64,000 nucleotides of DNA from a virus (IMGVR_UViG_3300046656_000199:1-64000), one strand, 5' to 3'; shown: positions 23,301-64,000, counted from the first letter of the stretch. Translations and numbers: made by a program. The notes: generated by a model from the letters alone, not told the origin.

Positions 23301-24186
23301 AAACGCTAACCCCGCTTCAGCCTTCGCGGTGGTTCGCACTCTGTCTCTGTTCGTGGGCGTCGAGAAGACGCTGGCCCAGGCCATCAGCGACGGCGACGTG
23401 GTCAAGGGTGGGATCGTCGTACCGGCGACCGCCGTACCGTGGCCACCTCCTCCACCCCCACCGCCTCCCCCTCCACCGCCTCCACCGCCTCCGCCCGTTC
23501 CGCCGTCGCCTCCCCCTCCGCCACCTCCACCGCCTCCGGCTTGCAGTGTGTCGCGGACGCCTCTTGGGTCGTTCAGTAACACGGGCAGCAGCACGCTCAG
23601 CGCGACGAGTCTGAGCGTCAGCACGGGCATCGTCATCGCCGTGGTAACGGTCACGCGCAACGACGGCGGCAGCATCACCATCACCGGCGTAACCTTCGAC
23701 GGCAATGCCATGACGGACGATGACAGTCGCTTGCTCGCCTCCAACTTCGACAGCGTCACGGGCTACGTCGCCATCTACTCGATGCCGGTAACGACGGCGT
23801 CGGGGAAGACCATGACGTTGACCGCCAGCACGGGGACGAACGCCACCCTTACGCTGGAAATCATCAATGTGACGGGGCTCGTCAACAACTTCCGCGACTC
23901 GGGCGGCAACGCCAGTATGACCAACAACTCGCCCGATGTGGTCATGAGTGGAGTGACGGCCGCCGACTGCGAATACGCTCAGGCCGGCTTCCTCCTGATC
24001 GGCGTCATGGGGGCGTGGACGTGGGCCTCACCGTTCACGTCTGGCGGACAGGACGTATCGCCGAGCATTCTGGTCAGCGCCACGGAAGGGTATGATGTAG
24101 CAGCGTCGGCGGGATCAACGCCGGATGCCACGCTGAGCACCGGACCGCTGGTGGCGTGGGCTGCGGTGATGAGCGTTTACGGGTGA
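20371..24186 (+). CDS. Large tail-tip/fibre protein with polyproline hinge
   Basis: 1271 residues from ATG 20371 behind GAGGGCCGTCAGC. N-terminal 400 residues contain a phage baseplate-hub-like region (LQRPGDLCKILLDRMQEVGYT, PAQMLQQLAEAFGCRIVLRHD) followed by an inserted beta domain (FTLILDGIAVSFTA). Residues about 1025-1058 are almost only proline, a rigid hinge. The last 210 residues form a Ser/Thr/Gly-rich beta domain (SISVSTGIVIAVVTVT-like), a probable receptor-binding tip. Length and position after the distal tail gene fit the host-recognition module. Confidence 0.7.
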   Translation: MAGEIYGTVSWPGVVSIQGATTTMSHGITPSVTVLRCNPQTPDVVVAQYGNLVYTDEQGTAVVLYDCRLRNARAHKDEQGEWLLLEIEDRRWRWSLGWVDGVFNTVDPSGGYFGPLNPNAGPRLAPAKKYLPWSLQRPGDLCKILLDRMQEVGYTIIIPNDELPPVSWDHANPAQMLQQLAEAFGCRIVLRHDSNTVAIVPVGIGDTLPDGSIQKDSLVLPKLGRPDSILCVGDITRYQLRMQLQAVGEDWDGMLRPIDNLSYAPPGGKVRQLVEFDPATVSIGKVFTLILDGIAVSFTATAGTVANVTAGLAAAVNANAQLAALKITAFDGASIFTGVNGNPNGDPFTYIAAATAPARLTPNLKKAPKKGSWDNDIPPVFANVVATDRLTRLEALQLARKSVFKYYRVVLQDPTDATIPLNIPGFGRILRKEQLILQSEQVLQIVPTKQDDNVIDQFDGSTLTLDFYNGYARNRPAKVYGSYFWPTTGVVRVAGLEITKPNEEVRVPFSIDAARHLVTFSDHVFSLENPGGTILQQLEAAATASTGIISASSLVLETAVQVRDPINHQVVRAEEVYIFPGAQAGTAPLIIKHDDVQVNYITIYDPTKIAKPLATVNDLPDAKKRARFYLLLEASKYDQTRLGRERIYNGLVPVVMDGAIQQVTWTRDENGIETRASLNSEHDLYVPQFPLRLQLEYLKALQKAAVATQTNPEAAGESIGDILAAGGEVKGWFERAPKGTADRSPLYDAVRWIAVRNTGTDPIPAYGLVTLTGQDTDGVATATAPTLDSQPRLFVNGPVDIPGGSRGQVHRSFPAAVLYDVNDGTPAFGAAWGSKAGTFTLTKDNGGFRILGAPDAGIVNVEEDTEGSDTDASHTNSGDVNLSHQYLGAGSKGVDALVIGVDDNSFIDPPGNLWINCEGVGGIEFGSDSTFDASGAILYIPTTTTSIATGDDIIAIRSANDGTASWRTDTGYSIWVLNANPASAFAVVRTLSLFVGVEKTLAQAISDGDVVKGGIVVPATAVPWPPPPPPPPPPPPPPPPPPVPPSPPPPPPPPPPACSVSRTPLGSFSNTGSSTLSATSLSVSTGIVIAVVTVTRNDGGSITITGVTFDGNAMTDDDSRLLASNFDSVTGYVAIYSMPVTTASGKTMTLTASTGTNATLTLEIINVTGLVNNFRDSGGNASMTNNSPDVVMSGVTAADCEYAQAGFLLIGVMGAWTWASPFTSGGQDVSPSILVSATEGYDVAASAGSTPDATLSTGPLVAWAAVMSVYG
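23442..23540 (+). repeat. Polyproline-coding C-rich tract
   Basis: About 100 bases of CCx codons encoding some 30 prolines with single Val and Ser breaks. It separates the hub/shaft part of the tail protein from its C-terminal domain. Confidence 0.85.
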
Positions 24187-25957: not shown

Positions 25958-26320
25958 GTGGAACCTCTCTCGGTCATCATTGGGGCAGTGGCGACGGCTC
26001 TGGTCGCTATTCTCGCCGCCGTGGTCAAGTTCATCCGCGACCGCAAAGCCGCAGACGTCGAGTCGCAGGAAGCCGGGCAGAAGGTGCGGCAGAGCGACCA
26101 GAGTTTCATCGCCGACCAGTACCGCAAACTGGTCCGCGACCACCAGAAGGACGCGGCTGACCTGCAAGAACAGCTGGAGAGTCTGCGGGAAGCGTCCTCC
26201 CGCGAGGCACACGCCCTGCGGGATCAGTTGCAGGCCGTGTGCATGTCGGAGGCACTGTACAAGGAACGCTGTCGGGTGCTGGAGGATCAGGTCAAGGAAC
26301 TCAGGAGCAAGCCGCAATGA
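25958..26320 (+). CDS. Inner-membrane spanin-like protein
   Basis: 120 residues from GTG 25958. One N-terminal membrane segment (LSVIIGAVATALVAILAAVVKFI, about residues 4-26) followed by a long coiled coil (about 40-118). This is the layout of inner-membrane spanins, which bridge to an outer-membrane partner in the last step of lysis. It stands at the head of a block containing a holin-like and a protease gene. No lipoprotein partner was found in standard form nearby. Confidence 0.5.
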   Translation: MEPLSVIIGAVATALVAILAAVVKFIRDRKAADVESQEAGQKVRQSDQSFIADQYRKLVRDHQKDAADLQEQLESLREASSREAHALRDQLQAVCMSEALYKERCRVLEDQVKELRSKPQ

Positions 26321-26712
26321 AAGTGCTGCTCGTCGAGAACAAGGATGCCTGTATCGGCGCGTTGATGGCTCTGCTGACGTCGGCCGACAAGCAAGTCGAG
26401 GTGTGCCACACGCTCGAAGAGGCCGAGGTCCGGCTGACGAAAAACTCCATCGACGTGGTGATTGTCAGTCAGGAGTTGGCCGGCGAGCCTGATTTCTTCA
26501 AACGGCTGGCCGGCATCAGCATCGTGATTGTCACCAGCGAGAACTACCTGCAAAAAGCGATGCGCTGGACGCAGGAGGCCAGCGGTGCCCGGCTCAACGA
26601 ATCGGCGCAGTGGGCGTTCGAGCGCAAGGACGGATTCGAGCGGGCCGAGCGGATCGCCCGGCGCATGAAGGAGCGAACCGACGCGGCGGCATTGCTGCTG
26701 CCAGGAGCGTGA
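26317..26712 (+). CDS. Response-regulator receiver-like protein lacking the phospho-aspartate
   Basis: 131 residues; ATG 26317 overlaps the previous stop (ATGA). The N-terminal 85 residues follow the CheY receiver pattern: MKVLLVENKD (beta 1 with acidic pocket Glu7), DVVIVSQEL (beta 3) and ISIVIVTSEN (beta 4 with Thr/Ser). The position of the phospho-acceptor Asp is Ser51, so phosphorylation is unlikely. A helical, basic C-terminus follows. May be a pseudo-receiver that binds a partner protein. Confidence 0.55.
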   Translation: MKVLLVENKDACIGALMALLTSADKQVEVCHTLEEAEVRLTKNSIDVVIVSQELAGEPDFFKRLAGISIVIVTSENYLQKAMRWTQEASGARLNESAQWAFERKDGFERAERIARRMKERTDAAALLLPGA

Positions 26713-26718
26713 GACGTC

Positions 26719-27027
26719 ATGTTCCATGAAATCGTCAAGCGTCTCGATGTGATCGAGGCAACCCTGAAAGCCCTCCAACAACTGATCGGAGTCAAGATCA
26801 TGGCTACGCAAGCCGAACTCGCCGTACAGATCAACACCCTGACGGCGCAGGTCCAGAAGATCGCCACGGAGTCATCGAAGACGCTCCAGATGGTGACGGA
26901 CCTGCAATCCCTGATTGCGGCGGGCGGCACGGTCACGCCGGAGTTGCAGGCATCCGTGGACGCCCTGGCCGCGCAGATCAAGGTGACGGACGATCTCGTG
27001 CCGGATGCCCCGGCACCGACGCCGTGA
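26719..27027 (+). CDS. Coiled-coil hypothetical protein
   Basis: 102 residues from ATG 26719. Heptad-rich nearly throughout (LAVQINTLTAQVQKIATESSK, LQASVDALAAQIKVTDDLV) with an acidic/Pro tail. Common type of small phage protein; in the lysis block it might help the spanin-like protein, but no evidence beyond location. Confidence 0.55.
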   Translation: MFHEIVKRLDVIEATLKALQQLIGVKIMATQAELAVQINTLTAQVQKIATESSKTLQMVTDLQSLIAAGGTVTPELQASVDALAAQIKVTDDLVPDAPAPTP

Positions 27028-27102
27028 GTCCTTGCGGCGGCGGCCGGAGGCTTGAGAGGAGGCGCCGGCCCGCCGTCCGCAATCCCGTGGAGGAGACGTG
27101 TC

Positions 27103-27309
27103 ATGTTCGCCGACATCATGATTCGGACGCAGTGGAGCATCGGCGATCTGCTCATCGCCGTCATCATCATCGCGGCGTGCATCGGAATTGTGTACGTCGC
27201 CCTGCGCGTCTTCGGCGTGTCGATCCCCGCGTGGGCCGTGCAGATATTCTGGATCGTCGTCGTGGCCTGCGTTGCGATCTTTGCGATTCGCCTCGTGCTG
27301 AGTCTGTGA
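27103..27309 (+). CDS. Holin-like two-TM membrane protein
   Basis: 68 residues, ATG 27103 behind GGAGGAGA. Two hydrophobic segments (LLIAVIIIAACIGIVYVAL, residues 16-34; WAVQIFWIVVVACVAIFAI, 44-62) with a short turn and few charges, as in class II holins. One gene separates it from the secreted protease, so a holin-lysin pair is likely. Confidence 0.6.
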   Translation: MFADIMIRTQWSIGDLLIAVIIIAACIGIVYVALRVFGVSIPAWAVQIFWIVVVACVAIFAIRLVLSL

Positions 27310-27324
27310 GCGGAGGGATTCGCC

Positions 27325-27564
27325 GTGAAAGCGCCGCTGGTTCGGCCGATCATCCGGTCCGATACATGGGGCTACCTCGATCAGTGGTTCGTCCACGTTC
27401 GCGAGTCGATCGAGGAGAATTCAGGGTGCCAGTTCACGGAGCAAGACGCCCTCATGTTTGAATCGCTGGCCGAGCAGGTGCGGGAGAAGATCGCCTTGAG
27501 CGAGCGCGGTCGCAAGGCCGCTGAAGCATCGCTGAAACTGAAATACCAGAGGGTGAAATCGTGA
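27325..27564 (+). CDS. Small hypothetical protein between holin-like and protease genes
   Basis: 79 residues from GTG 27325 (CGGAGGGATTCGCC upstream). WGYLDQWFVHVRESIEE followed by helical, basic C-terminus. Overlaps the next gene by four bases (GTGA). Function unknown. Confidence 0.6.
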   Translation: MKAPLVRPIIRSDTWGYLDQWFVHVRESIEENSGCQFTEQDALMFESLAEQVREKIALSERGRKAAEASLKLKYQRVKS

Positions 27565-29057
27565 ATCGCATTCTCCACATCGCTCTGAGCATGGCTCTGC
27601 TGTCGCTGGCGGCCATCGTGGCGCCGGCTCCCGAGATTCAAGCGTTGCAGAAGGCGCCCGATGCCGTCGAGAAGCCGAAGGATGTCAAGGCCGACGCTCC
27701 TCCTCGTGCCACCGGTTACCGGCCCTCGACGCCCGCCGTCAAGCAAGCACTCCACGCGGAGCGGCTCGTCAAGCATAAGGGCCGCATGGCCTCGCTGGTG
27801 CGGGCCACCACGCCGCCGGCCGAGTTTGACGCGGCAGACATGGGCTGGGCCGGCGATCCCGGCGATCAGGCCGATTGTGGAAGCTGCTATCTGTACTCGA
27901 CCTGCAAGACCGCCACGACCGCTTTCGTGAAGTCCGGTTACGGCAAGGTCAACGAATTCCGGTTGGCCACGCAATACGGGATGGATTGCCACAACTTCGG
28001 CGGTTGCAACGGTGGTAACGGAACCGAGGTCATTGACTGGATGGTCAAGAACGGCTGGCCCGCCGAGTCCTACGTCACGGCGGACGGCCAGCAGCACAGC
28101 GACTATCCAGCGTATCAAGCGCGGAGCGGTCAATGTCGGCTTCCCGCGAACGCGAAAAAATGGTTCCCGAAAGACTGGCTGTTCATCACGGACGACCAGT
28201 CCGACAAGCCGGCGCCAGTCGAGAATTACAAAGCCGCGATCATGGCCTACGGGCGTGTCAACGTCGCCCTTGATGCGGGAGGCCAGTTCAGCAACTATAG
28301 CGGCGGGGTCATCACGTCGCTAGGTCGCAGCATCGACCACGAAATCAACGTGCGGGGATGGTCGGATGCCAAGCAAGCGTTCTTGCTGGAGAACCAGTGG
28401 AGCGGCTGGGGCGGCGCCAAGGAGAAGGGCGACTCCTGCGCGTGGTTGTCGTACAAAGCCGTGGCCGCGCTGCAAGATCCATTCGTCGTCTCGGCTGTGC
28501 CGTTGCCCCCACCCCCACCGGGTCCGAATGCCCCCGTGGTAACGTCCTCGTCGGCATCGGCTCAAGTCGGGGCGCCGTTCACCTACCAGATTGTCGCCAG
28601 CAACACACCGACCAGCTACGGCGCGTCGGGGCTTCCCACAGGGCTGACGGTGCAGGCCACGACGGGAGTGATCTCGGGATCGCCCACGGGCAGCGGCGTT
28701 TACCCGGCCACGGTGACGGCAACCAACACGGCGGGGACGGGGACGGGCACGCTGTCGTTGACGGTTGGCACTGGTCCTCCTCCATCGCCAGTTCCGGTGG
28801 GCACGCAGACGATTGCCCTCAGCGGCTTCGGCAAGAGTGACGGTGTGTACGAGGCCAACCCCGTAGGCACGGCGTCGACAATCATGGACATTCGCCGGCA
28901 GCTGGACGTTCTGTTCCCGCCGTTGGTGCCACCCCCGCCGTCGCCGGGCATCTCGCCAGAGCAGGCGGTCATCAACAAGCAGCAGGAAGCCATCAATCAG
29001 GCCATCCTGAAGAACCTTGAAGCGCTGAACAAGGCCATCCTCGGACCAGGGAAGTGA
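27561..29057 (+). CDS. Secreted papain-family (C1) cysteine protease with Ig-like domain
   Basis: 498 residues from GTG 27561. A signal peptide (residues 1-28, MNRILHIALSMALLSLAAIV) and a pro-like segment precede a C1A core: Gln103 and Cys109 in QADCGSCY, the family GCNGG motif at 148-152, His260 in DHEINVRGW, and Asn278 in ENQWSGWG. All catalytic positions are present. After a PPPPPP linker comes an Ig-like He_PIG type module (ASGLPTGLTVQATTGVISG), a second Pro linker and a helical C-terminus. Beside a holin-like gene in a genome without a visible muramidase or amidase, it may serve as the lysis enzyme. Confidence 0.8.
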   Translation: MNRILHIALSMALLSLAAIVAPAPEIQALQKAPDAVEKPKDVKADAPPRATGYRPSTPAVKQALHAERLVKHKGRMASLVRATTPPAEFDAADMGWAGDPGDQADCGSCYLYSTCKTATTAFVKSGYGKVNEFRLATQYGMDCHNFGGCNGGNGTEVIDWMVKNGWPAESYVTADGQQHSDYPAYQARSGQCRLPANAKKWFPKDWLFITDDQSDKPAPVENYKAAIMAYGRVNVALDAGGQFSNYSGGVITSLGRSIDHEINVRGWSDAKQAFLLENQWSGWGGAKEKGDSCAWLSYKAVAALQDPFVVSAVPLPPPPPGPNAPVVTSSSASAQVGAPFTYQIVASNTPTSYGASGLPTGLTVQATTGVISGSPTGSGVYPATVTATNTAGTGTGTLSLTVGTGPPPSPVPVGTQTIALSGFGKSDGVYEANPVGTASTIMDIRRQLDVLFPPLVPPPPSPGISPEQAVINKQQEAINQAILKNLEALNKAILGPGK

Positions 29058-29280: not shown

Positions 29281-29495
29281 TGACGCCCGAGCAAGAAGAA
29301 CTGGTCATCGTCTTTACTCAGCCAGCTCGCCTATCCGACGAGCGCTTCAAGGAGATTCATCAGTATGCGATTCATTTTGACCCTGACTGCCCTGTGTGCG
29401 TTCGCTGGTGCGAGCCGTGCCCAGAGCATCGTCGACAGGCTCGACGCGCTGGAGAAGCAGACGGTGCAGATCAACGCTCTCAACACCAAGGTTGA
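29280..29495 (+). CDS. Possible small overlapping gene
   Basis: 71 residues from ATG 29280, which overlaps the previous stop and has AGGAG seven bases upstream. Contains a Cys cluster (CPVCVRWCEPC). The 3' half overlaps the secreted protein at 29365 by 131 bases, so it may be real only in its first part or be a chance frame. Confidence 0.3.
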   Translation: MTPEQEELVIVFTQPARLSDERFKEIHQYAIHFDPDCPVCVRWCEPCPEHRRQARRAGEADGADQRSQHQG

Positions 29496-29778
29496 TGCGT
29501 TGTCGGCCAAGGTTGACGCCCTGGCCGTGAAGATCGACAAGCTGGCATCGGCACCGACCACGCCGCCCACCGTCAAGACGCCCGTCGCCGACGCGGGCAA
29601 GGCGTGCGTGTGCAGCTCGGCCTGTACTTGCGGCTGCAACCAGGGTCAGCCGTGCGACTGCGCCACGCGGGTGGCGACGGTGCCGGCGTACTACTCGGCA
29701 CCGGCCTACTACTCCGCTCCAGCGTTCGGCGGCTTCCGCTCGGCGCGTGGTTCCTGTGCGTCGGGATCCTGTCGCTAA
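29365..29778 (+). CDS. Secreted cysteine-rich coiled-coil protein
   Basis: 137 residues from ATG 29365 with AAGGAG ten bases upstream. Signal peptide (MRFILTLTALCAFAGASRAQ), heptad helix (QINALNTKVDALSAKVDALA), then a Cys cluster (CVCSSACTCGCNQGQPCDC) and a Tyr/Ser/Ala repeat (YYSAPAYYSAP). Exported planctomycete proteins with such Cys clusters are common, so this may be host-derived. Function unknown. Confidence 0.6.
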   Translation: MRFILTLTALCAFAGASRAQSIVDRLDALEKQTVQINALNTKVDALSAKVDALAVKIDKLASAPTTPPTVKTPVADAGKACVCSSACTCGCNQGQPCDCATRVATVPAYYSAPAYYSAPAFGGFRSARGSCASGSCR

Positions 29779-33061: not shown

Positions 33062-34330
33062 GTGAGTCCCATCGTGGCCCGTCCGCGCGTGCAGCCGCAT
33101 CCCGTCAGAGTCACCGTCGTCCGCTACCTCGATGCCGAGGGCCGACCCGTCCGCAAGGGCACAGAGGGCGCCCGGCACGTCGTCACACAGTCGGACAGCT
33201 ACTACGCCGTCCTCTACACGGGCGGCGTCAAGCGACGGGTACCGCTCAAGACCACGGACCTGAGAGGCGCCTGGGTCGCCCTGGACGCACTCCAGAAGCG
33301 TCTGGAGCGAGAGGGTGCTGGCATCGTCGACCCGACCCTTGCCGCGGCACGTCGGCCCATCGCCGAGCTGGTGGAGGAGTGGGTGCGCTCCGTGCGGAAC
33401 AGCGGGGTCGCGGAGAAGCGCGTCACCGATCTGAGGTCGCGGGTTCTGCGGCTGGTGACGCTGGCCGGCTGGAGGAGGGTCACGGACATGACGGCGGATT
33501 CGCTCAGGCAAGCGCTGGCGGCCCTGGCAACCGTGATGGACAGGCACGGACCATCCAGCCGAGGACGGGGCAGGGGGCCGAAGACGCGCAACCACTACCT
33601 CTCGCACGCCCGCCAGTTTGCCGAGTGGTGCGTCGAGGGGGACAGGCTGTTGCGCAATCCGTTTCGCAGTGTGCGGCCGGTGTCGACCGAGGAGGACATC
33701 CGCCACGCCCGACGGGAGCCGACCGACGACGAGGTGCGGAGGCTGTTCGACTACCTGCCCACCGCGCCCGTGCGGATCGGCACCAGCGGCCCGCAACGGC
33801 TACTAGCCTACCAATTAGCGATGAGTACCGGCTTCCGGGCAGGGGAGTTGCGTCGGCTGGTACGGGCGTCGTTCGCGCTTGACGGCGTGCCCACCGTGAC
33901 CGTGGCGGCCAGCTTCAGCCGGAAGAAAAAGCGTTCAGCCACGCAGCAGCTTCCCGCCTGGCTCGCCGACGAGTTGCGTGCGTGGCTCGCCAAGGGCGGC
34001 GGCCTGTGGACCTCGTGGACGCGAACGGGATCGCCGGGGCTGTGCCTGCGGGCGGACCTCGAAGCGGCTGGCGTGGAGCGGACGAAGCCCGCGGCGGACG
34101 GGGTGACGCCGCTGCACCTCGATTTTCACTCGCTGCGTGGGTGGTATATTTCACGACTTGCCGATCAGCCCGATATCAGCCCGAAGACACTGCTGGAACT
34201 GGCCCGGCACTCCGACAGCAACCTGACACTCAGGATCTACGCCAAGCGGTCGGAATCTGGCATCGGCCACGCCGTTGACTCGCTGCCTCGACCAGGAGCA
34301 ATCAAACCAACGAAAGGGGGGAAGGAATGA
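33062..34330 (+). CDS. Tyrosine recombinase (phage integrase)
   Basis: 422 residues from GTG 33062. N-terminal part is basic and likely binds arm sites; residues about 95-200 fit the SAM-like core-binding domain (LVEEWVRS ... YLSHARQFAEWC). Catalytic domain: Arg259 (TGFRAGELRRL), Lys near 289 (SRKKKR), His356-x-x-Arg359 (FHSLRGWY), His383 (ARHSDSNLTL) and Tyr393 (RIYAK). All expected active-site residues are present. It should integrate the phage at attP, probably in the non-coding zone at 35.1-35.5 kb. Confidence 0.85.
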   Translation: MSPIVARPRVQPHPVRVTVVRYLDAEGRPVRKGTEGARHVVTQSDSYYAVLYTGGVKRRVPLKTTDLRGAWVALDALQKRLEREGAGIVDPTLAAARRPIAELVEEWVRSVRNSGVAEKRVTDLRSRVLRLVTLAGWRRVTDMTADSLRQALAALATVMDRHGPSSRGRGRGPKTRNHYLSHARQFAEWCVEGDRLLRNPFRSVRPVSTEEDIRHARREPTDDEVRRLFDYLPTAPVRIGTSGPQRLLAYQLAMSTGFRAGELRRLVRASFALDGVPTVTVAASFSRKKKRSATQQLPAWLADELRAWLAKGGGLWTSWTRTGSPGLCLRADLEAAGVERTKPAADGVTPLHLDFHSLRGWYISRLADQPDISPKTLLELARHSDSNLTLRIYAKRSESGIGHAVDSLPRPGAIKPTKGGKE

Positions 34331-36473: not shown

Positions 36474-36698
36474 ATGGCCTTTGAGAAACCGACCAAGGAG
36501 CAGCTTGGCAATCGCTTCCGGCACCATGCGCCCAAGGGCGACCAAGCCGAGCGATACGCCAGGGTGCGCGAGGAAATCTTCGCCGCAGCAATGGTATGCG
36601 TCGATCTGACGCCGTGCAGCCCCGAGCAGACGCTGGCGCTCAACGCGCTCGACGAAGCCATGATGTTCTTTGTCGCGGCGATCACACGCAACGAATGA
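36474..36698 (+). CDS. Acb2-like cyclic-nucleotide sponge (anti-CBASS)
   Basis: 74 residues from ATG 36474, behind GAGGAGATCAGCAA. Matches the pattern of Acb2/Tad1-hairpin small proteins: N-R-F-x-x-H-x-P-K near the start, QAERYARVREEIFAAAMV helix, D-L-T-P-C-S-P-E-Q-T turn, then LALNALDEAMMFFVAAITRNE. Acb2 proteins form hexamers and bind the cyclic signalling nucleotides of CBASS, blocking the defence. It lies in the lysogeny-to-early boundary where anti-defence genes are common. The two hairpins ahead of it (36393-36435) could modulate expression. Confidence 0.7.
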   Translation: MAFEKPTKEQLGNRFRHHAPKGDQAERYARVREEIFAAAMVCVDLTPCSPEQTLALNALDEAMMFFVAAITRNE

Positions 36699-38637: not shown

Positions 38638-38907
38638 ATGTTTGACGGGCTGGAACGCGGCATGATCATCGCCGTGGACACGATCAGCTTCCCCTTCGTG
38701 GGCGAGGTGGACGGCTTCGGCGAAACCTTCATCCGCCTGAAGAACGCCGTCAAGATCCTGTGGGACGGCAGGCATGGCGAGTACGCGGCGGGCAAACCTC
38801 CGACCACAGCCGAGATCGAGAAAACCTACCCGCTGTACACGATCTCGGCCGACGCAATCATCGGCTGGGGTCGCTACCCCGGCGGGAAAATTCCGGAGCC
38901 TCGCTGA
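38638..38907 (+). CDS. Hypothetical protein
   Basis: 89 residues from ATG 38638 with CAGGAG six bases upstream; an in-frame ATG at 38527 is possible but the preceding 37 codons read poorly. MIIAVDTISFPFVGEVDGFGETF and YPLYTISADAIIGWGRYPGG suggest a small beta protein. Its stop overlaps the start of the Gly-rich repeat gene. Confidence 0.55.
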   Translation: MFDGLERGMIIAVDTISFPFVGEVDGFGETFIRLKNAVKILWDGRHGEYAAGKPPTTAEIEKTYPLYTISADAIIGWGRYPGGKIPEPR

Positions 38908-39239
38908 TGCGAAAAACGACGTCGCAGAAATACGAGTCGAACTACTACGAGAGCGGCGGTCGGAGCGTCGGTCTGAGCGGCGGTCTGAACGGCGGTCGGA
39001 GCGGCGGTCGGAGCGTCGGTCGGAGCGGCGGTCTGAACGGCGGTCTGAGCGGCGGTCTGAGCGTCGGTCGGAGCGTCGGTCGGAGCGACGGTCGGATCGG
39101 CGGTCGGATCGGCGGTCGGAGCGGCGGTCGGAGCGGCGGTCTGAGCGTCGGTCGGAGCGGCGGTCTGAGCGACGGTCGGAGCGACGGTCGGATCGGCGGT
39201 CGGATCGGCGGTCGGAGCGGCGGTCGGAGCGGCGGCTAA
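38907..39239 (+). CDS. Gly-Gly-Arg-Ser tetrapeptide repeat protein
   Basis: 110 residues from ATG 38907 (TGATG overlap, GGAG eight bases upstream). The first 16 residues are unique and Tyr-rich (RKTTSQKYESNYYES). The rest is 23 tetrapeptides of the type GGRS/VGRS/GGLS/GGRI, coded by a 12-bp DNA repeat. Arg/Gly-rich repeats often bind RNA or form condensates. All frames of the repeat are open, so this reading rests on the ribosome site and coupling. Confidence 0.5.
   Translation: MRKTTSQKYESNYYESGGRSVGLSGGLNGGRSGGRSVGRSGGLNGGLSGGLSVGRSVGRSDGRIGGRIGGRSGGRSGGLSVGRSGGLSDGRSDGRIGGRIGGRSGGRSGG
38957..39232 (+). repeat. 23 tandem copies of a 12-bp repeat (CGGTCNGANCGN)
   Basis: Units differ at three positions only (C/G-G/T, G/A/T, G/T/A) and show higher-order blocks, a sign of slippage or unequal exchange. 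No spacers between units. Confidence 0.9.
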
Positions 39240-41044: not shown

Positions 41045-41221
41045 ATGTTAATCCTGAACAGAAAGCGCGACGAAACCATCGTCATCGGCGACATCGTCAT
41101 CCACGTCATCGAGATCCAGCGCGGCCGGATCCGCCTCGGCATCCAGGCACCCGCCGACGTGCTGGTGCTGCGGGGCGAACTGCTGGAGCGGGTGCGGCCG
41201 GCAGAGGAAGAGCCGAAGTGA
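41045..41221 (+). CDS. csrA: CsrA/RsmA-family RNA-binding regulator
   Basis: 58 residues from ATG 41045 behind AGGGAGAGCGA. Full-length CsrA: MLILNRKRDETIVIGD, then VIHVIEI, RIRLGIQAPADVLVLR and ELLERV match the five-strand dimer fold; conserved Leu4 and Arg43 at the RNA-binding faces are present. CsrA binds GGA motifs in mRNA leaders and changes translation or stability. On a phage it could reprogram host mRNAs or regulate phage genes. It is directly followed by a structured RNA with several GGA motifs. Confidence 0.9.
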   Translation: MLILNRKRDETIVIGDIVIHVIEIQRGRIRLGIQAPADVLVLRGELLERVRPAEEEPK

Positions 41222-57628: not shown

Positions 57629-58960
57629 GTGGCTCCGGCGGGACCGGACGGCGCGAAGATCGCCGAACTACTCCGCACGTCGCTGCGCGTCGGCACGGCC
57701 ACGCTCGGCGAACTGACGGGCGCGGCGGTCAAGCGATTGCTGGAGAAGGGCAACGCGGGCAAGGCGAAGCGGCTGTTCGACGATGCGGAGCGAAAGCAAT
57801 TAGCTCGTTTAATCGGGGCCACCAATGCGGCGGGCGAATTGTTGGGCCGTTCGCGGGTTCGTCTCCGCATGGAGAAGGTGCAAAAGCACGACGAGCAGTT
57901 CAGCGTCTTCGACGATGCCAGCCCCATTCATCCCATGGCGCCGATCGAGGCTCTCAGTTACTTCAAGAGGCTGGTGCCAACGCTCAACCTTGATCCGCAG
58001 GACTTTGCCACCGACATCGGCCAAAGTGCCTTCACCATTGCGGGTATCACCGAGGAGTCGTTGCTCGAACGTATTCAGGAGATCATCGCGAACGCGCTGG
58101 CGACGGGAGGCGACAAGGCTGTCGTTCCGAGCGTTGACGAGATTCTCAACGAGGCCGGTCTGAGTCCCCGCAATCCGCAGCGGGCAGAAATGATCGTGCG
58201 AACGAACATGATGAAAGCCGTTTCGGAAGGCGTCACTCGCGAGATGCAAGACCCCGATGTCGCCGACTACTTCCCGGCCTGGATGTACAGCGGAGTTCGT
58301 GACGGTCGACAGGGCAAGGACCACGAACAGCACTTCGACAAGTATTTCCCGAACAGCGTCACGTTCGACGAGGTGCGCGGGCCGCGCGTGTTCAACTGCC
58401 GCTGCGTGCAAATTCCCATCGACAAGCACACCTGGGCCGACCTGCAAGCGCGGGGCACGCGATTCGCGTCGTTCGCCGAGGCGCCCGTCCCCGCCGTCGA
58501 GCAGAATCGCCCGTGGACGTGTGGCCCTGCCGCCCTCGTCGCCGTGCTGAGCCGCTACGATCGCACCGTGGACGAGGCCGATGTCAGCCGCACGCTGGGC
58601 ACGACGGAGGAAGCCGGCACGTCACCCGAGCAGATGGAAGCCGGGGCGCGCTCGCTCGGTCTCGACGTGGAGGCGTTGCACGGCATGACCACGCCGCAAC
58701 TGGAGCGGGCCATCATCATGGGTCAACCGGTGATCGCCTGCGTCCAGATGCACGGGGACGCGGCAGCAATGGCCGACGAGGAAGCAGGGCACTGGATAAT
58801 CTTCACAGGTAGGCATCGCGGTACGCTCGACTGCATGGATCCGGCCACGGGTGAGACGGCGGAGATCGCGAAGGCCGACCTGCCACGGGTGTGGCGCGAC
58901 CGGGACGCGGAGGGGATGCCGTTCAGGAGATACGGGTTGGTGGTGAGGGGCACGTCATGA
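57629..58960 (+). CDS. Mu F-like head morphogenesis protein fused to a C39-peptidase-like domain
   Basis: 443 residues from GTG 57629. Residues 60-280 match the Mu gpF/SPP1 gp7-like minor head protein (RAEMIVRTNMMKAVSEGV, HEQHFDKYFPNSVTFDEVRGPRVFNCRC). From about 290 a papain-fold C39-type domain begins: Cys298 in WTCGPAALVAVL, His388 in GHWIIFTG, and Asp404 in CMDPATG, in the expected order. C39 domains usually cleave after double glycine. Overlaps the next gene by ATGA. Confidence 0.8.
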   Translation: MAPAGPDGAKIAELLRTSLRVGTATLGELTGAAVKRLLEKGNAGKAKRLFDDAERKQLARLIGATNAAGELLGRSRVRLRMEKVQKHDEQFSVFDDASPIHPMAPIEALSYFKRLVPTLNLDPQDFATDIGQSAFTIAGITEESLLERIQEIIANALATGGDKAVVPSVDEILNEAGLSPRNPQRAEMIVRTNMMKAVSEGVTREMQDPDVADYFPAWMYSGVRDGRQGKDHEQHFDKYFPNSVTFDEVRGPRVFNCRCVQIPIDKHTWADLQARGTRFASFAEAPVPAVEQNRPWTCGPAALVAVLSRYDRTVDEADVSRTLGTTEEAGTSPEQMEAGARSLGLDVEALHGMTTPQLERAIIMGQPVIACVQMHGDAAAMADEEAGHWIIFTGRHRGTLDCMDPATGETAEIAKADLPRVWRDRDAEGMPFRRYGLVVRGTS

Positions 58961-60442: not shown

Positions 60443-63400
60443 ATGCCACTCGACACGGGGACAAGCCGGGACGCTGTAAGCAGCAACATCCGCACAGAAG
60501 TTGCTGCGGGAAAGCCGCAGAAGCAAGCGGTGGCAATCGCCCTGTCGAAAGCGGGGCTGTCCAAGGCCGCCGAACGCCGCGCTTACCTGATGGAGCACGG
60601 GTGGGGCAAGTACGTCGAGAAATTCTGCCAGGAAGGGACAAACAAGGGCAAGCCTGGCCCGTGTCCGAAAACAGGTGGAGCAACGCCAGGAAAACCGGCT
60701 GACAGTGCAACCAGGCCGGCAGCGAAGAAAACCGCCGCCCGCCGCAAGCCGAAGGCCACGCCGGATAGCGTTCACGCCTCGATCGCACACGTCCTGTCCA
60801 ATCCGAGCGCGATCACGCCCGAGGCAACGACGTCGGTTGTGTCGGACCTGTCCTCGCTCACCATTCCGCAGATGAAAGACATTCATGCGCGTCTTGGAGG
60901 CGTCGGCAAGTTGACGGGCAAAAAGGCGGAACTGGCCCAGAAGATCGCAGATGCGGCTATCACTTCCGTCAAGGCTGGATCGAAGACGTCGGCAGCGCCC
61001 GAGTCAGTTGCTGATACACGAAAACGACTCGGCTATGATACGGGTACGCCGCCAGCCTCAACGTCATCGACATCAACCCGCACTGTTAAGCGTGGCGGCG
61101 AACCGCCGCAAACTGCGGGAGGATTCTCGCTCGACTCGTCGCGGGGCTTTCTCTTCAACACGATGACGTCTCTCCTCAAGGGCTTTGACGAACATCCTAA
61201 CGAGGTCGAGGGGCGCGAAGCCATCATTCACGCCGCTCTGCAACTCGCGGCGATGGGCGACGCAGGCAAACCGGCGCTCGACGTGCTGGCGCAGGTACTC
61301 CAGCGGCAACCCGAACAGAACGTCGATCAGCATTGCGAACCGGGAACGCCGCAAGCAAAACCGGGGCCGTGTGCAACGTCGGGACAGGCCATTGAGAGCA
61401 TCGCCGCCAAATTCCCCGGCAGCGAGAGCATGGGCAAGGACGAAGTAGTCATACCAAACGGTGACGGCCGATACATCTCTCTTGAATCGTCCCAGAAATA
61501 TGGCGGACCAGCGAATGGCGTGCACATTGGTTTCTTTCAAGAAACCCCCGGAGGCGATCAGGACTTCGACAAAAACAACAAGAAACTTCAGCCCGGCACC
61601 ATTGACCTGATGCGCAAACTATCCGGTGTTCTCGGCGAACTGGAAACGGCAAAGACGCCGGCGTCCTACAAGGCCGAGCCGAAGCGAGCCGCTTTGTACG
61701 AGAAGATTTTCCGCCGTCGTGGTTGGACGCTAACGACATCCAAACGCGGCAACGATAAGACGTTCGCCGTCTGGCAACCACCTGCTTATCCATCGTCCCA
61801 CGCTGAACGCAGCGCCTACATGATGGAGCACGGCTGGGGCAAGTACGTCGAGCGGTACTGCGACCACGGGCCGAACGCTCACAAGCCGGGACCGTGCCCG
61901 GACGAGGGTGGGGGATCTTTCGAGACAGTCCCCGGCGGACACAAGGGCACCGAGAGAGCGAATACTGCAACAAGGGCAGCGGTGGAAGCCAGTGCCAAAG
62001 CGAACGCTTCTGGATCTGCCGCCGATCACCGGATGGCTGCCAGGCGCCATCGGGCGGCACAGGAAGCCCACTGGAAAGAAGGCGACGAAGCCGGCGTCCA
62101 TTACACGAAGACGATGGGGCGCAAGGATCCCGAGACGGTAGCCCTGGCTGCCGATCTTCTTCGCCGCACGAACGCCCACGACGCATTGCACAAAGCACAT
62201 CAGAACGCCTACGAGACGCACAAGGCGGCGATGCGTGCCGCACTGAAAAGCGAAGGTGGCCAGCACGCCGAACAACGCTACTGCGACCACGGGCCGAACG
62301 AGCACAAGCCGGGGCCGTGCCCGGATGAGGGGAGCGGATCGACGCCGACTCCGACGCCGGCCGCAACCTCTGCCACGCCTGCCGCTGGCCCGAAGGAGTT
62401 ACCGAAGGGGACGCTTTTCGAGCATTCCAAGAACGCTGTCGACCAGCAGCACCAGAATATGTCGGTACTGCTGGCCAAGATGGTCAAGGGCGAGTACGTC
62501 CCCGAAGACGTCGTCAGCGACGCCAAACACTACACGAACAACGCACTCGCTCGCAATGACAAGGGCTGGAACGGACGCTTTAGCGCCTACGCCGCCAACG
62601 CCAAACACTACTTCCCGCCCGAGGCATTTCAATCCGAGGAGTGGGGCAAGGTCAAGCAGGCGTTTCGCGATGCCCGCGACGCCAACGCTCAGCACATCAG
62701 CGATCTCGGCGAACACGTCGCCCATCTCGGCGAGTATGCCCAGAAGAGCGGCAATACCAAGATCAAGCAGAACAGCGATGACGCGCAGTTTCTCGGACGT
62801 GAAAAAACGGCAGCCTACGCCACCGCCGTGAAGGAACAGGAGAAAATCTACGCCGCCCTGAACGCACTCGAAAAGAAGTTTCCACGCAGCAAGCCAACCG
62901 GTCGGCACCTGTACGCCGAACGCTTCTCCGAAGGCAGCAGCCAACTCCGCGATGTCGAGGTCTTCCCCGAGGGCACCCACCGCGGCAAGCCATATTCCCT
63001 CGCCGACCTGCACGACATGGCCATCAACTTCAACCGCTACTCGGCGGGCAAAAAGCCGTGGGTGCGCGTGCCTGCCGTGCTCGGTCATGAGGAGACGCAG
63101 GAATATCTCGAGCGCTCCGACCTGCCCGCCGCGGCCTGGGGCGCGAAAGCCTACGTTGGCAAGGGCACCGATCCCGACGGCAAGCCGATCAATGTCCTCA
63201 AGATGAATTTCACGGACGTGCCGCAGAAGGTGGCGAGGCTCATCAAGGGCCGCCGCTACCGTACCGTTTCCGCCGAAGTCTACGACGACATCCCCGAGGG
63301 TCTACCAGGCGCCGGCACAAAAACGAAGATGCTTCGGCGCGTGGCATTTCTGGGCGGCGACATTCCGCAATGCAAGTCGATCGACGAATTGCCCATGCCC

Positions 63401-64000
63401 GAACCGCACAGCGAATTTGACTCGAAATATACGGTCGTGGTTTCCTCGCTCGTGCCATCAACGGCAGCGCAGTTCAGCGAGCCGCGCAGCGTGCAGGGGG
63501 CGACGTGGTGCTTTTCCGAGCAAAAGGCGAGATCAATGAACCGCGACGAAATGATTCAGCAGCTCGGCGACCTGGGCGTTGACACGAGTGTTTGCACGCC
63601 GGAGATGCCGGACCCCGCGATTGCCGAATGGCTGCGGTCGCTGACGGACGAGGGCGAGACGCCGGCCGAAGAGACGCCCGCCGAACCGAAGCCCGGCGAC
63701 ACGAACAACCTCGACGATATGCCGCCCGAAGAGCCGACGCCCGGCAGCGCTGCCCCGGCCTACGACGAGGACGCCAAGCCCGAAGACCCCGAGAAGATGG
63801 GTGAGTGGGCCAAGCGGATGCACGACAAATATTGCTCGCAAGACAACGCCCGGCCGATGGCTGACGCCCCGGCCCCTGGGAGTCCCACCATGCCGACCGC
63901 GCCGAAGAAGATCACCACGACGGAGCACTACAGCGAACTGAAGAAGAAGGCCGACGCCGCTCTTGCTTCGCTGACTGCGGCGACCAAGGCTGCGGAGGAC
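60443..64000 (+). CDS. Giant head protein with PGPCP modules and Mu gpI-like protease domain (3' truncated)
   Basis: Open from ATG 60443 to the window end (1186 codons, no stop). Four modules of the type Y/F-C-x-G...KPGPCP occur near residues 70, 305, 480 and 620, two preceded by MEHGWGKYVE. Residues about 640-870 are helical and basic (AKHYTNNALARND, GEYAQKSGNTK). Residues about 870-1010 match the Mu gpI-like protease (VGKGTDPDGKPINVLKMNF, GRRYRTVSAEVY, MLRRVAFLGG). An acidic, Pro-rich tail follows (ETPAEETPAEPKPGDT). The C-terminal scaffold part is at 2-478. No strong ribosome site seen before 60443. Confidence 0.75.
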   Translation, partial: MPLDTGTSRDAVSSNIRTEVAAGKPQKQAVAIALSKAGLSKAAERRAYLMEHGWGKYVEKFCQEGTNKGKPGPCPKTGGATPGKPADSATRPAAKKTAARRKPKATPDSVHASIAHVLSNPSAITPEATTSVVSDLSSLTIPQMKDIHARLGGVGKLTGKKAELAQKIADAAITSVKAGSKTSAAPESVADTRKRLGYDTGTPPASTSSTSTRTVKRGGEPPQTAGGFSLDSSRGFLFNTMTSLLKGFDEHPNEVEGREAIIHAALQLAAMGDAGKPALDVLAQVLQRQPEQNVDQHCEPGTPQAKPGPCATSGQAIESIAAKFPGSESMGKDEVVIPNGDGRYISLESSQKYGGPANGVHIGFFQETPGGDQDFDKNNKKLQPGTIDLMRKLSGVLGELETAKTPASYKAEPKRAALYEKIFRRRGWTLTTSKRGNDKTFAVWQPPAYPSSHAERSAYMMEHGWGKYVERYCDHGPNAHKPGPCPDEGGGSFETVPGGHKGTERANTATRAAVEASAKANASGSAADHRMAARRHRAAQEAHWKEGDEAGVHYTKTMGRKDPETVALAADLLRRTNAHDALHKAHQNAYETHKAAMRAALKSEGGQHAEQRYCDHGPNEHKPGPCPDEGSGSTPTPTPAATSATPAAGPKELPKGTLFEHSKNAVDQQHQNMSVLLAKMVKGEYVPEDVVSDAKHYTNNALARNDKGWNGRFSAYAANAKHYFPPEAFQSEEWGKVKQAFRDARDANAQHISDLGEHVAHLGEYAQKSGNTKIKQNSDDAQFLGREKTAAYATAVKEQEKIYAALNALEKKFPRSKPTGRHLYAERFSEGSSQLRDVEVFPEGTHRGKPYSLADLHDMAINFNRYSAGKKPWVRVPAVLGHEETQEYLERSDLPAAAWGAKAYVGKGTDPDGKPINVLKMNFTDVPQKVARLIKGRRYRTVSAEVYDDIPEGLPGAGTKTKMLRRVAFLGGDIPQCKSIDELPMPEPHSEFDSKYTVVVSSLVPSTAAQFSEPRSVQGATWCFSEQKARSMNRDEMIQQLGDLGVDTSVCTPEMPDPAIAEWLRSLTDEGETPAEETPAEPKPGDTNNLDDMPPEEPTPGSAAPAYDEDAKPEDPEKMGEWAKRMHDKYCSQDNARPMADAPAPGSPTMPTAPKKITTTEHYSELKKKADAALASLTAATKAAED

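Follow-up and report, generated by a model that had tools for sequence, protein, structure and literature searches.

An exported papain-family protease of a temperate phage as a candidate accessory lysis enzyme

Introduction

What does an apparently exported papain-family protease do in a phage that has no recognised endolysin? The question is raised by P0001, a gene that lies beside small membrane-protein genes in a stretch of viral DNA of 64,000 nucleotides (hereafter the window, meaning the whole stretch analysed). The initial annotation read the protease as a probable endolysin, suited to the thin or unusual walls of planctomycete hosts. Here we describe the gene and its surroundings, compare it with papain-family (C1A) proteases across viral contigs, and weigh a role in place of an endolysin against a role beside one and against functions of other kinds.

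Results

The window covers practically the whole of the virus record (64,003 bp, linear). The first and last seven bases of the record are identical (GGACTCG), and joining them puts the terminal ORFs in frame, so that the large head-region ORF g97 continues across the ends (Table 1). The counterpart of g97 in a sibling phage is a single ORF of 1237 aa. From the in-frame overlap and this undivided counterpart we conclude that the genome is essentially complete. An endolysin hidden in a missing piece was therefore ruled out: the ends join in frame and no sizeable piece is absent. The modules follow the order terminase, portal, Mu gpF-like head protein, g97, gpT-like capsid protein and tail genes up to position 24186, then the P0001 block, which is thus placed between the tail genes and the integrase, and finally the integrase with the replication genes.

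Pfam and PHROG searches of the approximately 97 called genes, with a rescan of the less clear ones, gave no muramidase, amidase, transglycosylase, CHAP or NlpC domain among the matches listed. The initial annotation had found none of the first three in the window, and this is borne out, with one papain-fold exception. The minor head protein g93 (Pfam matches to PF13529, 5e-10; PF03412, 8e-9; and PF04233, 1e-6) carries a C39-like peptidase domain, which makes it a rival candidate for a wall-directed peptidase; this virion-linked enzyme might cut wall peptides at entry or at lysis.

Table 1. Features of the window, in order of position
Feature	Position	Strand	Description
g33	25958..26320	+	120 aa; first gene of the block; N-terminal TM segment (residues 5-23) and coiled coil; spanin/holin-like topology
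g34	26317..26712	+	131 aa; weak resemblance to response-regulator receivers (PF00072, E=0.002, below cut-off); ATGA overlap with g33
g35	26719..27027	+	102 aa; coiled-coil protein; weak matches to coiled-coil families only
g36	27103..27309	+	68 aa; two TM segments (12-30, 41-59); holin-like
g37	27325..27564	+	79 aa; stop overlaps the P0001 start (GTGA)
P0001	27561..29057	+	498 aa, GTG start; C1A papain-family protease, predicted to be secreted; signal peptide, pro-region to about residue 85, C1A domain 86 to about 300, He_PIG (Ig-like) domain 325-402, C-terminal helix about 466-494
g40	29365..29778	+	137 aa; seems by eye to have a signal peptide, with a coiled coil and a tail rich in Cys and Tyr; candidate envelope protein
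Integrase	33062-34330		PF00589, phrog_1
Acb2/Tad1-like gene	36474-36698		short protein with similarity to Acb2/Tad1 hairpin proteins (PF24729, 4.8e-10; gene assigned by eye); nucleotide-sponge anti-defence
Low-complexity ORF	38907-39239		repeated GGRSGG/SVGRS units; probably a repeat array, not a globular protein
CsrA	41045-41221		phage-encoded CsrA (PF02599, 2.7e-18)
g93	57629..58960	+	Mu gpF-like minor head protein with a C39-like (papain-fold) peptidase domain at residues 287-422
g97	60443..64000	+	large head-region ORF; runs off the right end, continues at 2-478 via the 7-bp overlap

P0001 is a real coding sequence, with a GC3 of 0.79 (genome mean 0.80 ± 0.05). The Pfam scan placed Peptidase_C1 (PF00112) on residues 86-284 (E=3.5e-21; 76.7 bits against a cut-off of 20.7) and He_PIG further downstream; these are its only Pfam domains, and a peptidoglycan-hydrolase catalytic domain is absent. 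Its best relatives in the PDB were plant papains, including actinidin, with E-values down to 1e-10. The oxyanion Gln (Q103) and the catalytic Cys, His and Asn (C109, H260, N278) stand in the canonical C1A order, together with W280, and none of the five varies when 12 divergent phage C1A proteases are aligned. The invariance of the Q/C/H/N set over such divergent proteins suggests that activity is under selection. Residues 4-22 form a strongly hydrophobic segment that fits a signal peptide and indicates export by the Sec route. The description of P0001 as a secreted C1A protease with these four residues intact is thus confirmed, down to their exact positions. An AlphaFold2 model from the single sequence had a mean pLDDT of 35 and was confident for the C-terminal helix only.

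P0001 overlaps the preceding gene, g37, by 4 bp. With the similar overlap of g33 and g34, this makes g33-g38 look like one operon in which two junctions are translationally coupled; g40 may also belong to the block. The small product of g36, with two TM segments in a lysis-like operon, has the size and topology of a holin (small, 1-3 TM), and its pore function is putative; it matched no holin or other family in the Pfam and PHROG scans. For g33 the PHROG matches were 'hol-like chemotaxis' (E=3.4e-4) and, weakly, Rz-like spanin families (E 0.03-0.3), and its TM and coiled-coil topology makes it a candidate Rz-like i-spanin. Both labels, holin-like and spanin-like, draw mainly on topology. Of the earlier statement that P0001 has a holin-like and a spanin-like neighbour, then, the topology and the shared operon stand, whereas family membership finds no match for g36 and a weak one for g33.

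Portal and capsid searches returned one close relative, the sibling phage (G001/L082, 64,887 bp), whose capsid protein is 79% identical, and found no related prophage in genomes. The sibling has no close P0001 homologue. It encodes instead, at 60895-61986, a papain-like protein whose Peptidase_C1 match is below threshold (E 0.028). Other contigs encode five relatives of this protein, and a GDC...DH pattern is conserved. Aligned with the phage C1A proteases in HHalign, this family scored a probability of 92.5 (E 5e-7, 170 columns); a PDB profile search with it yielded chance matches only, and its AlphaFold2 model (pLDDT 45) was so poor that a fold search from it is meaningless. A gene for a 69-aa protein with two TM segments directly follows the papain-like gene, in parallel with g36 and P0001, in a different genomic place.

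Several other features were observed in the two phages. The Acb2/Tad1-like gene has a homologue in the sibling at 765-1010, and contigs L142 and L100 also have CsrA-like genes, near C1A genes. Secreted coiled-coil proteins with Tyr/Cys-rich tails, possibly o-spanins or envelope proteins, are present in both phages (g40 in the window; L083:1007-1510 and L086:3928-4644 in the sibling). The last of these has a c-type cytochrome domain (PF13442, 9e-7), an unusual phage cargo, and two genes upstream of it lies a secreted CxxCH protein (L086:2235-3818). Among relatives of the sibling's papain-like gene, L089 has a lysozyme-like gene two genes upstream (by eye, no Pfam match) and L090 a Tlde1-domain gene nearby.

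Searches with peptides of P0001 itself found no close relatives in phage records, viral contigs or genome contigs, and in plasmids an unrelated repeat match only. Phages related through TerL were rejected as a source of a shared block, being too distant. A Peptidase_C1 scan covered 45 viral records, most of them related through TerL and the others being the window, the sibling and the sibling-gene relatives; only the window matched and, weakly, the sibling. A profile built with actinidin gave no confirmed viral relatives.

We therefore turn to the wider family, for which the motif QGxCGSCWxF was scanned over 2.9 million viral contigs. It occurred in 62 contigs, 60 of them with an in-frame C1A ORF, nearly always with a hydrophobic N-terminus or signal peptide; these counts are lower bounds because the motif misses variants, for example the QADCGSCY of P0001. 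All 50 C1A records retested exceeded the Pfam cut-off. Endolysins were present in 13 of the 50 (Amidase_2 in 12, GH24 in one other), and in 9 of these 13, or 10 if one contig is taken as circular, the endolysin lay within 1.2 kb of the C1A gene (270-1064 bp). Uniform placement predicts 1.3 such close pairs (P about 1e-7 to 7e-9), a generous null where late genes cluster in general; in addition, five of the cases belong to one clade. Clear cassettes have an amidase beside the C1A gene (L097, L125, L126, L141, L156) or consist of a C1A gene, a small TM (holin-like) gene and a GH24 lysozyme (L106). Placed on a tree of 47 C1A domains, the pairing takes five changes, of which supported branches force three or more, so it is not a single inheritance event. 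With endolysins so often close by, C1A proteases appear as recurrent lysis companions and not as obvious substitutes. C1A genes also adjoin small TM genes in L099, L106, L112, L131 and L136; in some other phages the C1A gene has nothing lysis-like beside it.

Other genes and gene forms were seen in the same contigs. Apparently secreted thioredoxin-like (AhpC/TSA) proteins are encoded beside C1A genes in L167, L185 and L187, and trypsin-like genes lie near them in L161 and L165. In L142 (15-1433) and L124 the His/Asn half precedes the half with the catalytic Cys, which could reflect circular permutation of a papain domain or two tandem copies that are broken; these two sequences are similar to the P0001 clade and were left out of the tree.

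In the tree, L129, L136 and L145 share a long branch with P0001 (support 98/92). Where searched for, Amidase_2, GH24, M15_4, SLT and NlpC/P60 domains gave no matches in the records of this clade. In L136 the C1A gene stands between genes for portal and capsid proteins, several small genes for TM proteins lie downstream, and a second gene is common to this contig and the window (g53, 44%). The C1A gene of L129 is downstream of a portal-like gene, and that of L145, which has no clear signal peptide, is among DNA-metabolism genes.

Discussion

We favour, with a probability of about 0.5, the reading of P0001 as an accessory, LysB-like lysis enzyme that would cut envelope proteins, and not as a peptidoglycan-cutting endolysin. 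Its association with lysis, already proposed in the initial annotation, is supported by the anatomy of the operon and by the nine or ten endolysins, out of 13, that are close to C1A genes in other viral records. P0001 would be expressed from a late operon together with the holin-like and spanin-like genes and exported late in infection to the periplasm or cell surface. There it would cut protein components of the envelope, which may be outer-membrane lipoproteins or porins, a surface layer or protein tethers, and so help virion release; peptidoglycan would fall to a separate cutter, maybe the product of an unannotated gene or the C39 domain of g93. Against this reading, no known endolysin adjoins the C1A gene in P0001's own clade (L129, L136, L145), two members of which have it between portal and capsid genes (L136) or, lacking a clear signal peptide, in a DNA-metabolism region (L145). 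The holin and spanin assignments are topological and some C1A phages have no lysis-like neighbour, while the uniform-placement test takes no account of late-gene clustering, and some of the amidase cases come from a single clade of relatives.

The proposal that P0001 is itself the endolysin, replacing the peptidoglycan hydrolase and bursting the cell through a load-bearing protein layer or peptide crosslinks, appears unlikely. To our knowledge C1A is not a family that cuts peptidoglycan, and in other phages conventional endolysins, where found, are accompanied by the protease (L097, L125, L126, L141, L156, L106), so the claim is not supported. It draws on the lack of conventional lysin families in the window, in the sibling and, where searched for Amidase_2, GH24, M15_4, SLT and NLPC, in the C1A relatives G078, G084, G082, G066 and G071; yet no function is known for about 87% of PHROG families, and an unrecognised lysin is therefore easily missed. 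Papain-superfamily domains (C39-like, NlpC-like) do occur in mycobacteriophage endolysins (PMC3314691). The argument from a thin or unusual planctomycete wall fails on its premise, since planctomycetes, the presumed hosts, possess peptidoglycan sacculi that lysozyme destroys (PMC4432640). Substitution is disfavoured, and keeps a small share of probability only since none of the endolysin families searched turned up in the phage itself, in its sibling or in its closest C1A relatives; that papain-family proteases took over the endolysin's job in this group, bursting cells by proteolysis, is quite improbable.

Readings outside lysis also deserve weight. A secreted C1A protease that carries Ig-like modules resembles the exoenzymes of bacteria, and the phage, which carries an integrase, is temperate. 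P0001 could accordingly be a host-derived exoenzyme or lysogenic-conversion factor that serves the lysogen's nutrition, competition or superinfection exclusion, a tentative alternative that we regard as rather unlikely. It would fit L145 and the other C1A genes without lysis-like neighbours, as well as the trypsin-like and thioredoxin-like secreted proteins near some C1A genes and the cytochrome-like secreted gene of the sibling. However, the 4-bp overlap places P0001 within the TM/holin-like operon and not in a separate moron unit, tight linkage to endolysins recurs over the tree, and the GC3 of P0001 equals that of its genome. It is very doubtful that P0001 is a particle-borne protease acting in capsid or tail processing or in entry: the positions of the closest homologue, in L136, and of the L129 gene beside head genes suggest such a role, but a Sec signal peptide would send P0001 out of the cytoplasm, where virions assemble, and the sibling, despite its 79% identical capsid, has no close homologue.

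No C1A lysis protein was described in the open-access literature searched, where absence is weak evidence, and an accessory lysis role for these proteases is apparently undescribed so far. If P0001 does act in this way, phage lysis has an apparently unnamed and widespread enzymatic step, the removal of envelope proteins alongside the endolysin, and protein layers probably obstruct the release of virions in the hosts of such phages. The proteases would then form a new class of candidate envelope-active enzymes and a lysis-cassette marker for phages of uncultured bacteria. With many independent C1A cassettes now listed, the question is directly testable.

Comparison with known systems

P0001 shares with peptidase family C1A (papain, actinidin, cathepsins; PF00112) the domain order and the intact Q/C/H/N(W) residues. 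It differs from these papains in being phage-encoded, in its short pro-region with a TG[L/Y] element, in the added Ig-like domain and C-terminal helix, and in having Tyr in place of Trp after the catalytic Cys. Endolysins exported by signal peptides likewise use the host Sec route and are encoded with small TM proteins, but P0001 has no peptidoglycan-hydrolase domain.

Papain-like folds are known from other phage enzymes. The cysteine-peptidase domains N4 and N5 of mycobacteriophage LysA are NlpC/RipA-like and C39-like (PMC3314691); like P0001 they are papain-superfamily peptidases in phages, and they are used in lysis, whereas they are not C1A and form part of modular endolysins, which in most cases also include an amidase or a muramidase. 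Among Bacillus phages, tail genes encode permuted papain-like amidases of the NlpC/P60 type (PMC9703825), which also have a papain-like fold but are tail-associated and cut the wall at entry, unlike a secreted C1A protease.

The closest functional parallel may be mycobacteriophage LysB, a second, non-peptidoglycan hydrolase whose gene stands in the lysis module beside the endolysin and which removes the outer, mycolic layer of the envelope (PMC6116114). LysB belongs to the Ser esterases and has the alpha/beta-hydrolase fold, whereas P0001 is a Cys protease, so the likeness is one of functional analogy only, with a putative substrate layer for P0001. An endolysin gene adjoins, as it does for LysB, in nine or ten of the 13 other C1A records that have an endolysin; in the window phage, with no recognised endolysin, the neighbours of the protease are the holin-like and spanin-like genes, among which P0001 would serve as the LysB-like enzyme of the cassette.
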